Translations under genes and position numbers: made by a program
The notes under the pieces: model-generated
Database searches by the model: none
What the model was told of the DNA's origin: nothing
Seen by the model: the letters and a program-made list of their open reading frames with translations, nothing else
Part shown: in pieces, positions 47,277 through 52,840 of the stretch
Numbering within the stretch: the stretch's first letter is position 1
Layout: each line of letters opens with the position of its first letter
IMG/VR virus record: IMGVR_UViG_3300034073_000569
Coordinates: 1-64,000 of that record
Strand: one strand, 5' to 3'
Length of the DNA: 64,000 bases
Source of the DNA: a virus

Positions 47277-47313
47277 TCCAAAAACAAAAAGGGAGGGACA
47301 TTTGTCCTCTCCC
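47277..47313 (-). terminator. Rho-independent terminator after the head operon
   Basis: Minus-strand GGGAG(A)GGAC-AAAT-GTCCCTCCC forms a 9-bp stem with one bulged A, directly followed by TTTTTGTTTTTGG. It lies about 26 bases after the stop of the 451-residue gene. GTATATTATTATTG at 47258-47245 may start the next unit. Confidence 0.88.
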
Positions 47314-47338
47314 TTAATGTTTAGATATTCTTAATATC

Positions 47339-48694
47339 TTATACAGTCTCTAAAGTTACTGCATTACCAGCCGCACTTGCACTAGATGCAATGAAGTTAG
47401 TAATTGAAGTAGTAGAAGTACCAGCAGGTACGTGAACTACGATCAAATACTGATCATTATCAAATGTGCTTGTTGGGTTGTTGAAACGAGGTACATTGTG
47501 TAAGATCAATACTTGATCATACAAACCAGCCTTGTTTACAGTTGCCAAAGCTGGATCAGCTTCGATCTCACGCATACGTAAGCTATCTACACGAGAGCTA
47601 TCAGGATATGCATTTTGTAAGTAACGACCATCTAAGATCAACTCACGTAATACAGTCTCACCTAAACCAGATGCTTGCTTAGGAGCTTGGATCTCTGCAG
47701 ATACAAATCCGTTTACAGCACAAGGATCACCAGACTCATCTACAAATGAAGTGTAGATAAATAATGGCTCTAATTCATAGAAATCAGTTGGAGTAAAAGT
47801 ACAAGCACCAAACTTAGTTTCAACGTAAGCAGCAGTGATCTCTAAGTGAGAATCTACAGCAGCTACATCATTAGCAGCAGTTACAGGAGAGTAAGTACCA
47901 GTTGCTACTTCAGAGTAGATCTTAGCATTACCATCTGTAGAAGCTACAGCATTTTTAGTAAGAACTACATTTGCATAGCCAGAACCAGCTGAATCAGCAG
48001 CACCAACAGAAACTACTTGAGAACCACCAGCTAAAGAAGCATGAACCACTTTTTCACCTGCTTGGAAAGCAGCTGCATCAGCGTTAGCTACAACGATAGT
48101 TGCAGAACCAGCTGTTGGGTTAATAGCTACTGAAGCAGTAGTTAAATTCCACACCTTAGCTTGAACAAAGTCTTTCAACAATGGAGCCTCGTTAATTTGA
48201 TCTTTCCACTTAAGTAAGATCACGTTTTGGTCTACTGTGTTAGTAGTACCTGCAACAGCATCACAACCACTGTGAGCGTCTAATGTCTTGTACAACTGGT
48301 GGTTTAAAAAACGCAACGCAGGTGAACCTTTAACATCTAAACGTAGACGGTAAGTAGTGTCACTGTTAATTGTAGCTGCAGAAGGATCTACAGATACGAT
48401 TTGATTTTGAGCAACATCAGATGTTACTTTGATCAAACGGCTGATGTACTTAGGGTTGATCACTTTAGACTTAACTGACTCTTTGTAACCACCGTGAACA
48501 GGGCCAATTTTGTCAGCAGCAAAGTAAGAACCTTGAGCCAAAATAAAAGGAGCAGCTTGAGCAGTAACAGCTTGGTACGTCTTAGCATCAAAGAAGCCAA
48601 TTTGACCAGCAGTTAAAGCATCAGTACCACCAGAGCTAGCTAAAGTTGTGCTAGCAGGCAAGAATGACTTGCGGAATGCATTAGGAAAATACAT
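47339..48694 (-). CDS. Abundant virion structural protein, 451 aa
   Basis: A beta-rich protein starting MYFPNAFRKSFLPASTTLAS, with an inserted Ala/Val/Gly-rich domain (ATIVVANADAAAFQAGEKVV ... SLAGGSQVVSVGAADSAGSG) and a compact C-terminal part (VLILHNVPRFNNPTSTFDND). Codons are richer in C-ending Asn, Tyr, Phe and Ile than in the fibre genes, as in the major capsid gene, and the 5' leader (AACCCTTAAATTAAAGCC) resembles that of the capsid gene. These point to high expression, so an auxiliary capsid or head-fibre protein, or a major neck protein, is likely. The family is not recognised with certainty. Confidence 0.8.
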   Translation of the reverse strand: MYFPNAFRKSFLPASTTLASSGGTDALTAGQIGFFDAKTYQAVTAQAAPFILAQGSYFAADKIGPVHGGYKESVKSKVINPKYISRLIKVTSDVAQNQIVSVDPSAATINSDTTYRLRLDVKGSPALRFLNHQLYKTLDAHSGCDAVAGTTNTVDQNVILLKWKDQINEAPLLKDFVQAKVWNLTTASVAINPTAGSATIVVANADAAAFQAGEKVVHASLAGGSQVVSVGAADSAGSGYANVVLTKNAVASTDGNAKIYSEVATGTYSPVTAANDVAAVDSHLEITAAYVETKFGACTFTPTDFYELEPLFIYTSFVDESGDPCAVNGFVSAEIQAPKQASGLGETVLRELILDGRYLQNAYPDSSRVDSLRMREIEADPALATVNKAGLYDQVLILHNVPRFNNPTSTFDNDQYLIVVHVPAGTSTTSITNFIASSASAAGNAVTLETV

Positions 48695-48720
48695 AGGGCT
48701 TTAATTTAAGGGTTATAAAT
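48695..48720 (-). promoter_or_regulatory. Leader shared with the capsid gene
   Basis: Minus-strand ATTTATAACCCTTAAATTAA then AGCCCT precedes ATG 48694. The capsid gene has the same core AACCCTTAAATT-AAAGCC at the same distance from its ATG. Confidence 0.5.
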
Positions 48721-48733
48721 AAAAAAAATAAAT

Positions 48734-49147
48734 TTAACTTAAAAACATTAACTTATACTTAGTTGAAGATATTAAACTTTTTACCTCATCAAGTTGGTTT
48801 GTAACTTCTGAAAAAGGCATAAGCTTTTGTAACTCAGTAACTTCTGTATATAGTTCTTTTATATGCGAAAGAGCTTCTTGTACAGATCCACATTTGTATG
48901 GTGTCACTGTAGGATACTCTAACAACTTCTCACGAGCACCTTGATATTGTTCTGCAACAGAATCAAGTAGTCCTGGCATACCTTCATAAAACTCACCTAG
49001 AGCTTTATGTATTGATAATGAACCTGGTCCTGTAATCTTTAGATGTAACTGATGCATACTCACTGTAAAAGATTGTGCATGAGCGATCATAGCTGCTGTT
49101 TCAGTACATGGGCCCATTGGTCCTGGTCTTTGTAACTTCTGTATCAT
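48734..49147 (-). CDS. Dps/ferritin-like four-helix protein, 137 aa
   Basis: The segment HAQSFTVSMHQLHLKITGPG ... SIHKALGEFYEGMPGLLDSV ... AEQYQGAREKLLEY matches the pattern of a phage family with a Dps-like fold (LHLxT-x-x-x-HKALGEFYD-x-x-x-LxD-x-AExYQG). In Dps proteins the corresponding His and acidic residues (here H40, E55, E68-type positions, approximate) bind iron. The protein starts at the last base of the previous gene's stop (TAATG overlap). In the virion operon it might be packed with DNA, protect it, or be structural. The fold is inferred by pattern; metal binding is not shown. Confidence 0.7.
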   Translation of the reverse strand: MIQKLQRPGPMGPCTETAAMIAHAQSFTVSMHQLHLKITGPGSLSIHKALGEFYEGMPGLLDSVAEQYQGAREKLLEYPTVTPYKCGSVQEALSHIKELYTEVTELQKLMPFSEVTNQLDEVKSLISSTKYKLMFLS

Positions 49148-49851: not shown

Positions 49852-49862
49852 ATTTTATAAAG

Positions 49863-49897
49863 ACCTGGGTGCTGTTCTCACGGGAAGCAACCCAGGT
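49863..49897 (-). terminator. Hairpin between head genes
   Basis: ACCTGGGT / ACCCAGGT is a perfect 8-bp inverted repeat with an inner GCT/AGC. There is no long T-run after it on the minus strand (CTTTATAAAA), so attenuation or mRNA end protection is possible. On the plus strand TTTTTT follows. Confidence 0.5.
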
Positions 49898-49905
49898 ACT
49901 GTTTT

Positions 49906-50922
49906 TTACTGGTTCCAGTATTTCTCAACTTTCTTAGTTAAGTCTACCAAGATCTCTTCATTTAGAGGGTTCTTTAGGTATTCTGCACAATCGGAAGGAG
50001 TACGTCCTAACATTGTTGTAGTTTCCATGTGGTAGATAAATCCATCAGCTTTAGTTGCAATAAACTTGTAATATGTACAGTCTTTTACAATAGCTCTGAT
50101 TTTTAATGTTTCCATATCTAAAGTGGCAACATCTAAGAATCTTTCAGCTGTTTTACGCTTATCTTTTTCTACAAGATCACCGTTAATATATTTATCCATG
50201 TTGTCATAGACAATATCATTTGGTGTAGATTTCTTATACTGAGCACTGTTAGCATCTAACACTTTTGCTACATATAGAAGTTTATTCTGATTCTTGTTAA
50301 ATAACTTTTCAAGTTCAGCCAATGCCTTATTACGCATTTTCTTAACTTCAGTATTTACAGATGCAGTTTCTTCTAACTTATCTAAGTAAAATTTAGGAGG
50401 AACTGGCATTCTACGAGCTTCTTCTAAACTTTTAGCAACGATTGAGAAACCACCTGCTTCAATTGCATATAATCTAATTAAATCATATGGATCTTTATCA
50501 GGCTCTAAGTAACTTGGTTCGTTACCACATCTAATTTTGATCTTATCCCAGAAAGCTGAATTATCAGGTTTCAGTAATTTAATCTTATTCCAGAACTGCT
50601 CATCTGTAGGTTCTACTACGTTTGCTGCTAATTCTTTCTCTAACTGAGCTACAACTACACGAATCTGCTTAATCTTAGCTTCTTGTTCTTCTGCAGGTAG
50701 CCCTTTAACATCTGGAGAAAACTCATTTAATCCAGTAATGTATCTTACAATACCGTTAATCTCTAGACAAGCTAATTGTTCCTCGTGGAACGCTCCGTCA
50801 AAAAGACTTAACCCATACTTCTGTAATCCCATATTGTCTACATTAGCATCAAAGAATGGTCTAATGGCAATAGTAGATTTCTTGTTTTGTGGATACTTTT
50901 CCACGATTGTTACTCCGCTCAT
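49906..50922 (-). CDS. Capsid-module protein, candidate auxiliary capsid protein, 338 aa
   Basis: A helical, charged protein placed directly after the major capsid gene. It contains KNQNKLLYVAKVLDANSAQY and FLDVATLDMETLKIRAIVKD ... YKFIATKADGFIYHMETTTM, with a C-terminal helix DLTKKVEKYWNQ. In crAss-like phages the gene after the capsid gene encodes a head-associated protein, so auxiliary capsid or scaffold are options. Its leader (AAAACCAAACAAACC) matches that of the scaffold-like gene. The mRNA carries a structured segment just before it. No catalytic motif. Confidence 0.68.
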   Translation of the reverse strand: MSGVTIVEKYPQNKKSTIAIRPFFDANVDNMGLQKYGLSLFDGAFHEEQLACLEINGIVRYITGLNEFSPDVKGLPAEEQEAKIKQIRVVVAQLEKELAANVVEPTDEQFWNKIKLLKPDNSAFWDKIKIRCGNEPSYLEPDKDPYDLIRLYAIEAGGFSIVAKSLEEARRMPVPPKFYLDKLEETASVNTEVKKMRNKALAELEKLFNKNQNKLLYVAKVLDANSAQYKKSTPNDIVYDNMDKYINGDLVEKDKRKTAERFLDVATLDMETLKIRAIVKDCTYYKFIATKADGFIYHMETTTMLGRTPSDCAEYLKNPLNEEILVDLTKKVEKYWNQ

Positions 50923-50943
50923 GTTTGGTTTGTTTGGTTTTTA
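50923..50943 (-). promoter_or_regulatory. Translation leader AAACCAAACAAACC
   Basis: Minus-strand TAAAAACCAAACAAACC precedes ATG 50922 with the CCAAAC unit repeated. The same TAAAAACCAAACA core lies before ATG 54138 and ATG 46619. Confidence 0.55.
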
Positions 50944-50951
50944 CTATAACT

Positions 50952-51131
50952 GGTCACAATATATGACCTTTTATATTTAGAACCTATTAGAAGTTGCGAA
51001 CTTCCCATGTGATCAGTCATGGTACGCGTACAATAGGTGACCTGGGGATACTATCCACAGGGTGGTAAAATGACTCAGACTAGTGAGGGTGTTTTAGCCA
51101 GTTAGACTGGTGTCCGCTATCCTTTCTGAGT
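50952..51131 (-). ncRNA. Structured RNA between capsid gene and next gene
   Basis: A GC-richer island in which almost all bases can pair (plus-strand coordinates). Hairpin A: GGTCA 50952-50956 with TGACC 50964-50968. Junction stem ACCTATT 50982-50988 with AATAGGT 51032-51038, enclosing GAAGTT-GCG-AACTTC 50990-51004 and CCATG-8-CATGG 51005-51022, and possibly GTAC-GC-GTAC 51022-51031. Hairpin CCTG-G-GGAT-ACT-ATCC-A-CAGG 51041-51061. Long stem ACTCAGA 51073-51079 with TCTGAGT 51125-51131, enclosing CCAGT-TAG-ACTGG 51098-51110. No open reading frame with a plausible start fills it. It could be a stable 3' fragment of the capsid mRNA, a regulatory element, or a packaging RNA. The structure is hand-folded; no family was recognised. 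Confidence 0.55.
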
Positions 51132-51152
51132 ACTGTTACTTTTATATCTTTT

Positions 51153-51176
51153 GGCAGGGGATTTTAACCCCCTGCC
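51153..51176 (-). terminator. Strong GC hairpin directly after the capsid gene
   Basis: GGCAGGGG / CCCCTGCC is a perfect 8-bp stem with an 8-base loop, 14 bases after the capsid stop. It lacks a T-run on the minus strand (AAAAGAT follows), so it may act as an RNA 3'-end stabiliser or Bacteroidota-type terminator. Confidence 0.6.
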
Positions 51177-51189
51177 TCAGATACTATTT

Positions 51190-52809
51190 TTAGAATGATC
51201 CTCCAGTAACTGGGTTTCTCATAACAATCTTCAACACCTTAGTTGGGTCTTTTACCCAGATTGCTGGCATTGTTTGTGTCATGAATACACGGTAACCGTT
51301 GAACTGTCCAGAAGACTGGAAGCCTTGAGTACGACCCATGTAGTCCATTGTACCGTTTTGGTAGAACCACTTCAATTGATTATCCCAAGATAACTTCAAC
51401 AAGAAGATGTTGTCGTTAGTGTTCTCAGTAATATCAAAGATAATGAAATTGTAAGAAGATAATGGGAAACCATCAATGATTGGGTTCTCAATATCATTAG
51501 TGTGGATGTTATCAAACGCTGGGTTCAATACAAACTTAACGTTAGCCAAGAAAGGAATAACGTATTGAGTGTATGCAAAACCAAAGTTTAAGTCCATACC
51601 TTTACCAGTGATAGCTCCTACCTCTGATGCATTAATTACTAAGCCAGAGTTGATAGCTTCACGCTTGATAGCTTCGTTAACAAGCTTCATACCACCAAGG
51701 CCAGTTTGTACAACTAACTCACGCTTAGGATCTGGACCTTGGAATTCAACCTTACCATTAAAGAAGTTGAAGATCTCAGATTTAAACAAGTCTAAGTTGA
51801 ATGAACCTTTGTTGTAAATACGCTTGTAAGAGTTATCTAACTGCTTCCAAAGACCTACAGATAAACGAATATCATCTGGACCATCTTGCTTAACCTTACC
51901 ACCTTGACCCCACATTAAGTAAGTTTCAATGTCGTTAGCAATCTTAGTCAAATGAGCTGCTTCCATAGAAGTTAAGAATGTACGAGTAAGCTGTCCTGAT
52001 TCGTAAGCTTTCTTTACATAATCTTTACCCATTTTAGAAGCCATAGTTTCTAAAGAAGATACAGAAGGATCAACGTTCTTATCGAAGTTTCTCCACATTT
52101 CAATTACAGGAACTGTACCGTCTGCTTTCATTCCACCTTTCATCATTAAGTCAGCACGAGAGCTAACAGAATAGTGAACGTGAGCTTCAGCACCACCTAC
52201 ATAGTTGTAGAATTCACGGAAACCTGCATTGATGTTACCGATATCAGAGAAACGCTCACCGTATTCACCACGAGCAGATCCTTTACGGAACACCTTAGTA
52301 CCCACCTTTAAGTACTTGTTATCCAAATACTTAGCATTGTCGTTGTTTACCAACTGAACAGTATAGATGAAACCGTCACCTGCTGGGATAATATCGTCAG
52401 CTGTGATGTACATCTCAACACCGTTGTACTTGTCATAAGTGATGATATCACCATGACCAAAAGAACGCTTATTCAATTTAATCTTGAAAGACTGACCATC
52501 AATACCTTTAGTGGCATTTGCTGATTCAATATCTTCTGTAATGTATGGAAGATCCTGCGTTACTGGAATCTGCCACTTGTACTCACCACGTGCGTTATCT
52601 ACTGAGATAACGTTCTTACCGCCAAAGCTAGACATCTGGTACAAAGGCATTTCTACCTTTTGAGCCATAGCCCATAAATCTACAGGACCTAAGTCTGTAG
52701 GTTCTGCTGACTTTAGCAAGTTTGAAAGGTGGTAGCTGTCTACGTGCGAGCTAGTCTGATAGCTGGTATCTCGTAGAAATATACCATTGTTCAAAACTGG
52801 AGTTGCCAT
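51190..52809 (-). CDS. Major capsid protein (HK97 fold), 539 aa
   Basis: The sequence (MATPVLNNGIFLRDTSYQTS ... GPVDLWAMAQKVEMPLYQMS ... ARGEYKWQIPVTQDLPYITE ... SVSSRADLMMKGG) matches the crAss-like major capsid family as I know it, slightly longer than the usual 490-500 residues. The N-terminal region, E-loop-type segment and long middle domain (TSMEAAHLTKIANDIETYLM) agree with HK97. Codon usage is C-rich (AAC, TAC, TTC, ATC, CGT), unlike the fibres, as expected for the most expressed gene. It follows the scaffold-like gene and is followed by a stable hairpin and structured RNA. Start ATG 52809 has a leader shared with the 451-residue gene. Confidence 0.92.
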   Translation of the reverse strand: MATPVLNNGIFLRDTSYQTSSHVDSYHLSNLLKSAEPTDLGPVDLWAMAQKVEMPLYQMSSFGGKNVISVDNARGEYKWQIPVTQDLPYITEDIESANATKGIDGQSFKIKLNKRSFGHGDIITYDKYNGVEMYITADDIIPAGDGFIYTVQLVNNDNAKYLDNKYLKVGTKVFRKGSARGEYGERFSDIGNINAGFREFYNYVGGAEAHVHYSVSSRADLMMKGGMKADGTVPVIEMWRNFDKNVDPSVSSLETMASKMGKDYVKKAYESGQLTRTFLTSMEAAHLTKIANDIETYLMWGQGGKVKQDGPDDIRLSVGLWKQLDNSYKRIYNKGSFNLDLFKSEIFNFFNGKVEFQGPDPKRELVVQTGLGGMKLVNEAIKREAINSGLVINASEVGAITGKGMDLNFGFAYTQYVIPFLANVKFVLNPAFDNIHTNDIENPIIDGFPLSSYNFIIFDITENTNDNIFLLKLSWDNQLKWFYQNGTMDYMGRTQGFQSSGQFNGYRVFMTQTMPAIWVKDPTKVLKIVMRNPVTGGSF

Positions 52810-52840
52810 GAGGCTTTTAAATTTAAGGGTTAATAAATAA
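52810..52840 (-). promoter_or_regulatory. Leader of the capsid gene
   Basis: Minus-strand TTATTTATTAACCCTTAAAT then TTAAAAGCCTC directly before ATG 52809. It shares AACCCTTAAATT-AAAGCC with the leader at 48695-48720 and has no Shine-Dalgarno motif. Confidence 0.5.

Follow-up and report, generated by a model that had tools for sequence, protein, structure and literature searches.

What occupies the long gap between the major capsid protein (MCP) gene and the following head-region gene of this virus, and what might it do there? The window analysed here, a stretch of 64,000 nt, belongs to an IMG/VR record of 127,624 bases, whose virus is crAss-like as judged by the matches of its MCP gene (51190–52809, minus strand; PF23898 Crass_capsid, 4.7e-31; phrog_11589, 8.1e-31) and by the portal gene upstream of it (phrog_6547). 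The next gene (49906–50922, minus strand) encodes 338 aa with no Pfam or PHROG match, and its ATG is preceded by an A-rich leader, AAAAACCAAACAAACCAAAC (50923–50945, minus strand), of a kind found before the next gene across relatives. The two genes are separated by 267 nt (50923–51189). The genes around this gap all run on the minus strand; it is thus the reverse complement of the window sequence that gives the RNA of interest. A first-pass annotation had described a 267-base, GC-richer gap in a genome with almost no spacing; its length and composition were confirmed (40% G+C vs 35% in the window) and by our ORF calling no other gap in the window is as long, but the remark on spacing was slightly overstated, as several other gaps measure 115–230 nt. 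On the transcribed strand, the gap region folds with a z-score of −4.2 relative to dinucleotide shuffles, none of which (0 of 200) equalled it, so that the concern that shuffled sequence might fold equally well does not hold; the opposite strand gives −3.1.

In transcript order, the gap contains the units E1, B, C, A and D. All helices drawn by hand in the first-pass annotation were found: the GC hairpin at the capsid stop (51153–51176), the 7-bp stem 51073–51079/51125–51131 (7/7 pairs), which is the outer stem of B and encloses CCAGT (51098–51102) and ACTGG (51106–51110), the hairpin with a G-A mismatch at 51041–51061 (hairpin C), the 7-bp junction stem 50982–50988/51032–51038 (7/7 pairs), which closes A, and the 5-bp hairpin near the next start (50952–50968). 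They do not make up the single RNA of about 200 nt that had been envisaged, but a string of separate units, in which only C and A form a conserved core (about 85 nt); B comes and goes among relatives, and a pseudoknot in A had been overlooked. The central proposal of an uncharacterised structured RNA is strongly supported, with compensatory changes in every helix of A, and also in B and, with a selection bias, in C. The suggested Rfam search returned nothing for the whole window at gathering thresholds (Rfam 15), and for the gap at E up to 10 it gave four far sub-threshold matches, of which the one over A was to a miRNA model and lay on the other strand. ARAGORN detected no tRNA or tmRNA gene in the window, and nucleotide similarity in named phages was limited to weak matches of 28 nt overlapping annotated protein genes of Erwinia and Serratia phages.

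Element A (50980–51039, minus strand) is almost certainly a real structured RNA element, its fold being maintained across changing sequences. Covariation, the minimum free energy (MFE) fold and a covariance model all describe a three-way junction, in which P1 (51032–51038/50982–50988) is joined by P2 (51018–51021/51006–51009, extended by 51022/51005 in the MFE fold) and by P3 (51001–51005/50989–50993). All three stems form in the MFE structure of the window copy, which scores 71.1 bits against the covariance model (E 9.3e-17). The folding energy of A alone is weak relative to shuffles (z −1.9 only) and by itself not decisive; covariation is. For comparison, we retrieved 80 IMG/VR loci with related MCPs. 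A first set of 49 distinct copies had 96% paired cells and compensatory changes in 14 of 19 pairs. A covariance model built without the pseudoknot was then used to gather 67 distinct homologues, in which 96.1% of pair cells are standard pairs and 18 of the 19 pairs show compensatory changes, the covariation that the first-pass annotation had asked to see. Double-changed cells number 206, against a shuffled mean of 43.7 (0 of 500 shuffles reached this value), and the covariation score of 0.484 falls to at most 0.101 when pairing partners are slid by 1–3 columns. The copies in L018, L019, L023, L046, L068, L044, L053, L269 and L274 were obtained by MCP-based retrieval and model detection and are hence independent of our sequence patterns. 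The conserved letters GUA.GC and GCAA were part of those patterns, so the invariance of unpaired letters (G9, U10, A11, C18, U41, A45 and A46 of alignment A2) is partly built in; the columns that covary were not fixed by them, being free or degenerate.

P2 is an optional part of this fold, being replaced by a UUCG-capped form in L051 and missing in L026, L036, L044 and L053. Its apical loop in the window, UGAUCA (51010–51015, minus strand), is self-complementary and a possible site of loop–loop contact. In alignment A5, GAUC is kept in nearly all P2 loops; three other copies carry the palindromes GGCC, UUAA and GUAC, and L220 has CUAG by eye, while the loop of L068 has no palindrome. As proof of dimerisation we rate the palindromic loop only suggestive, because a 4-nt palindrome arises by chance at a rate of 0.15–0.41 per shuffled short non-GAUC loop. 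A small ORF within A was also considered and rejected, since the length of P2 differs by 1–3 nt between copies and the ATG is not conserved. In L050 (4634–4667), a plain hairpin, CCTGGTGGAGGCTCGTAACTTCCACCAGG, stands where A would be and is perhaps a shortened form of it.

The junction of A pairs with the P3 loop in a 3-bp pseudoknot (51025–51027, GCG, with 50996–50998, CGC, minus strand; letters 13–15 with 42–44 of alignment A2). Across the 67 copies its pairs are A-U 46, G-C 13 and C-G 5 at the outer position, C-G 63 and U-A 2 at a second one, and G-C 63 and G-U 3 at the third. Since the pseudoknot was not part of the covariance model and its pairs covary all the same, we count this in its favour. 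In the 49-copy set the outer pair was A-U or G-C with zero exceptions; it is C-G in L018, L023, L201, L208 and L212, and L046 carries GUA/UAC. The window combination GCG/CGC varies in concert to GCA/UGC, GCC/GGC and GUA/UAC. By eye, distant copies also keep the pairing: ACG/CGU in L036, GCC/GGC in L059, L041 and L220, ACC/GGU in L221–L224, and GUA/UAC in L013, L015 and L017. In pattern scans that permitted mismatched combinations, all listed departures were matches outside the capsid gap. Counts from the one search that demanded the pseudoknot were excluded from this evidence, as were L274, in which the register is ambiguous, and L050 with its shortened-hairpin appearance.

The pairs of P2, P3 and the pseudoknot also bear on the transcribed strand. 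Read in the MCP sense, they contain 35 G-U against 15 A-C cells (p 0.007 by cell count, the cells not being independent), nine of the 15 A-C cells lying in P2, and 15 pairs show a G-U compared with six showing an A-C. This excess fits an RNA transcribed in the sense of the capsid gene and disfavours a hairpin acting at the DNA level. Similar reasoning was used to orient the L17 downstream element (PMC2864571).

The units around A differ in their constancy. E1 (51144–51184, minus strand) is the hairpin 3′ of the capsid stop, with a 10-bp core at 51153–51176 and a short outer stem GUAUC/GAUAU. It has the G+C-rich hairpin of an intrinsic terminator but not the U-tract: the hairpin is followed by AAAAGATAT, with only 2 T among 9 nt. 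At these positions, 1–3 T are present in most of the relatives closest to the window, compared with mostly 5–8 in relatives without A; a U-rich tail follows the capsid hairpin in some A-bearing relatives (L019, L025, L031 and L043). Element B (51064–51137, minus strand) is an optional module with an outer stem (51126–51131/51073–51078), a 3-bp inner stem and the CCAGU/ACUGG hairpin, and is followed by CAUUUU. In 10 distinct homologues 98.6% of its cells are paired and four pairs show compensatory change, and all 21 of 21 pattern matches lie inside the MCP/next-gene gap. B is structured, but it is gained and lost among relatives, being missing from L003 despite a 99% identical MCP. B and some capsid-downstream hairpins (L043, L274) have a common start (AACAGTACTCAG / ATAGTACTCAG), as if one were derived from the other.

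Hairpin C (51041–51061, minus strand), just 5′ of A, is a 21-nt, 9-bp frame with an AGU triloop, and most copies that have it place it 3–5 nt ahead of P1. Compensatory change was seen in eight of its nine pairs among 28 distinct homologues, a count biased by the choice of hairpins for their pairing. Upstream of C lies a C-rich tract, which in copies lacking C stands immediately before A. Hairpin D (50952–50968, GGUCA/UGACC, minus strand) has counterparts of differing sequence at the same place in many relatives. It appears to be part of the next gene's leader, since in L021 D stays beside the next gene with A far upstream.

A is confined to one place in the genome. Two pattern scans of IMG/VR placed 66 of 68 and 102 of 108 matches between the MCP gene and the next gene in the MCP sense, and whole-record model searches found one convincing copy per record among the 92–131 kb records that have A. 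Eleven pattern matches outside the capsid gap were treated as chance: those in L111 and L128 lie within ORFs, those in L151, L154, L165, L182, L185 and L194 have no MCP or next-gene neighbour, and the covariance model rejects or only just accepts those in L207, L210 and L211. One pattern scan of cellular genome contigs gave five matches, none backed by the covariance model, and the model found no match in the MCP regions of Cellulophaga phi4:1, csAssE and Leptolyngbya Lbo-JY46 or in the IMG/VR kin of the last. On a 94-row MCP tree, the presence and absence of A require 3 changes compared with a shuffled mean of 22.9, and an entire sister clade is without A. These comparisons show that A is inherited vertically with the capsid locus, and that it is a structured element with a defined transcribed sense, a single copy and a fixed location. 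The sister clade without A also indicates that A is not indispensable.

The surroundings of A are variable. Relatives differ in the length of the MCP–next-gene interval (about 70–1921 nt); in one clade it consists of a terminator and the A-rich leader only, and others carry inserted small genes. Where such genes are present, often no more than about 10 nt separate the upstream stop from the start of the C–A unit, and about 11–32 nt its end from the next start. For several kinds of inserted downstream gene, A ends 11–32 nt ahead of the start codon while its distance to the upstream stop varies between 9 and 266 nt, and where the 338-aa gene is downstream, 21–75 nt and usually hairpin D lie between A and its start. 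As the gene downstream of A is not always the same, what A is constantly associated with is the border of the late region on its capsid side and not one target gene.

Several observations on this part of the genome stand on their own. Across L010–L080, the interval serves as a hot spot for the insertion of small genes, of the types MAGNPKTPKS..KKKC (about 50–77 aa), MISLKK..PGSPD (about 150 aa), MKKF..PKSPD (about 178 aa) and MKARLGQ/MALEIYTRLG (about 75 aa). Directly after the capsid gene, L015 has an ORF resembling a LAGLIDADG-type homing endonuclease (gap positions 78–1034; PF14528, 7e-06), and L018 has a similar one, judged by its N-terminus (63–1007). In the window, the MCP gene and the gene for a 451-aa protein (47339–48694) have a common leader, AACCCTTAAATT..AAAGCC..ATG, at 52810–52835 and 48695–48720, respectively. 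Most A-bearing relatives have an MCP leader of this AACCCTTAAATT type, and most of the clade without A has a AACAAATAAAC-type leader instead. A hairpin 3′ of the 338-aa gene (49852–49905; ACCTGGGTTGCTTCCC..ACAGCACCCAGGTCTTTATA) is nearly identical to the post-MCP hairpins of L014, L023, L026, L035, L038 and L051, and such hairpins thus appear mobile between gene borders. A 137-aa gene among the head genes (48734–49147) matches DUF5856 and phrog_858, annotated as ‘starvation-inducible transcriptional regulator’.

Based on this anatomy, we propose, with a probability of roughly 40%, that A, usually with C 5′ of it, is a cis-acting boundary element in a read-through capsid transcript. The compact junction, locked by its P1/P2 junction–P3 loop pseudoknot, would act in an mRNA running in the capsid-gene sense into the following head genes. 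Because E1 lacks the U-tract of an intrinsic terminator, transcription probably passes through it into the downstream genes. The folded region would then mark the border between the capsid and downstream messages, where E1 and neighbouring hairpins may be sites of processing or halt nucleases at a 3′ end and A may serve as a stable block, setting the amount or lifetime of capsid versus downstream message for translation. Control of capsid mRNA stability or of the protein ratio, as raised in the first-pass annotation, is compatible with the anatomy of the gap; nothing observed points to the packaging role also suggested there. Several features speak against the boundary proposal: the U-rich tail in the four A-bearing relatives named above, the dispensability of A in the sister clade, the tight spacing on both sides, which is expected of any element in a compact phage genome, and the A-C cells, which are not zero.

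The short distance between A and the start of several kinds of inserted gene, next to the variable distance on its stop side, would also suit a 5′-UTR regulator of the following gene, that is a translational leader or one bound by a capsid or head protein (feedback) or a small molecule, for which the invariant letters left unpaired in the junction and in the P3 loop could provide a binding site. We regard this as possible but rather doubtful: typical riboswitches and leaders keep their downstream gene whereas A does not, a spacer and usually D intervene ahead of the 338-aa gene, and the invariance of the letters is partly a product of the search patterns. If the hairpins formed an array that ends the capsid transcript, with E1, B, others and A as its parts, one would note the canonical terminator at the same place in relatives without A, the CAUUUU after B and the U-rich tails of several A-bearing relatives; with a U-tract following neither E1 nor A in the window, and with a pseudoknotted junction and invariant loop letters that termination does not need, such an array seems quite improbable.

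Processive antitermination, in which nascent A would bind RNA polymerase so that late-operon terminators are passed, is suggested by analogy with HK022 put and the EAR/epsC type of Bacillales. Like these, A is a compact cis-acting RNA of similar size (put, about 70 nt; PMC9378689), pseudoknotted as is EAR (PMC2864571), and it lies inside a long same-strand late region with terminator-like hairpins downstream (about 49852–49905 and 47280–47320). However, put consists of two stem-loops downstream of early promoters (PMC9378689), whereas A forms a three-way junction and lies among late genes; A had no epsC match in Rfam, the terminator-like capsid hairpin lies 5′ of A, on the wrong side for protection, and relatives without A keep the same MCP–next-gene order. 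We therefore consider this role unlikely. The self-complementarity of nearly all P2 loops raises the alternative of an RNA that acts in trans or has a structural role, such as a processed RNA of about 60 nt that dimerises through these loops and serves head assembly, packaging or host interference. The chance rate of such palindromes, the palindrome-free loop of L068 and the copies with a UUCG tetraloop or no P2, in which the loop is dispensable, leave little likelihood for it, and we give slightly less again to the more specific conjecture of a phage RNA class that homodimerises via P2 and acts on capsid expression or head assembly as an RNA machine, not as a passive UTR hairpin. Although the small fold of A, with its junction, its pseudoknot and letters that are unpaired yet invariant, is reminiscent of a self-cleaving ribozyme cutting the message at the capsid border, the absence of any Rfam family match even at the lax threshold indicates that A is of no known ribozyme class, and this role is highly unlikely.

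Intercistronic stems are familiar from T7-type phages as the RNase III processing hairpins of their mRNAs, and A resembles these as a structure that could shape phage mRNA ends; it differs by its pseudoknot and invariant junction letters. A phage-encoded structured RNA with loop–loop association is known in the phi29 pRNA. The same holds for GOLLD and ROOL RNAs (PMC12286853), whereas dimerisation of A is only suggested by its palindromic loops; many GOLLD members exceed 800 nt, often near tRNA islands (PMC12286853), compared with about 60 nt for A. The L17 downstream element (RF01708; PMC2864571) is, like A, a structured RNA directly 3′ of the gene for an abundant structural protein and in the sense of that gene. 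It differs in being found in Lactobacillales and Listeria downstream of a ribosomal protein gene, and A does not belong to RF01708, which gave no match and has another gene context. With no Rfam match and no earlier description found in the open-access literature (subscription papers and preprints lie outside this scope), A represents a new RNA family within a broad kind already known, the structured intercistronic RNAs. In this candidate family, ‘crAss-like capsid-downstream RNA’, the window copy combines the P1/P2/P3 pairing, the junction–P3-loop pseudoknot and the location between the MCP gene and the next gene in MCP sense.

Few conserved pseudoknotted RNAs have been documented within phage structural operons, and likewise few structured RNAs that lie 3′ of a gene instead of in a leader; in bacteria, regulatory structures in 3′-UTRs have been called highly unusual (PMC2864571). 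The carriers of A are freshwater and soil crAss-like viruses, members of a widespread order in which little is known about gene regulation. The covariance model and the 67 aligned copies make A directly testable.
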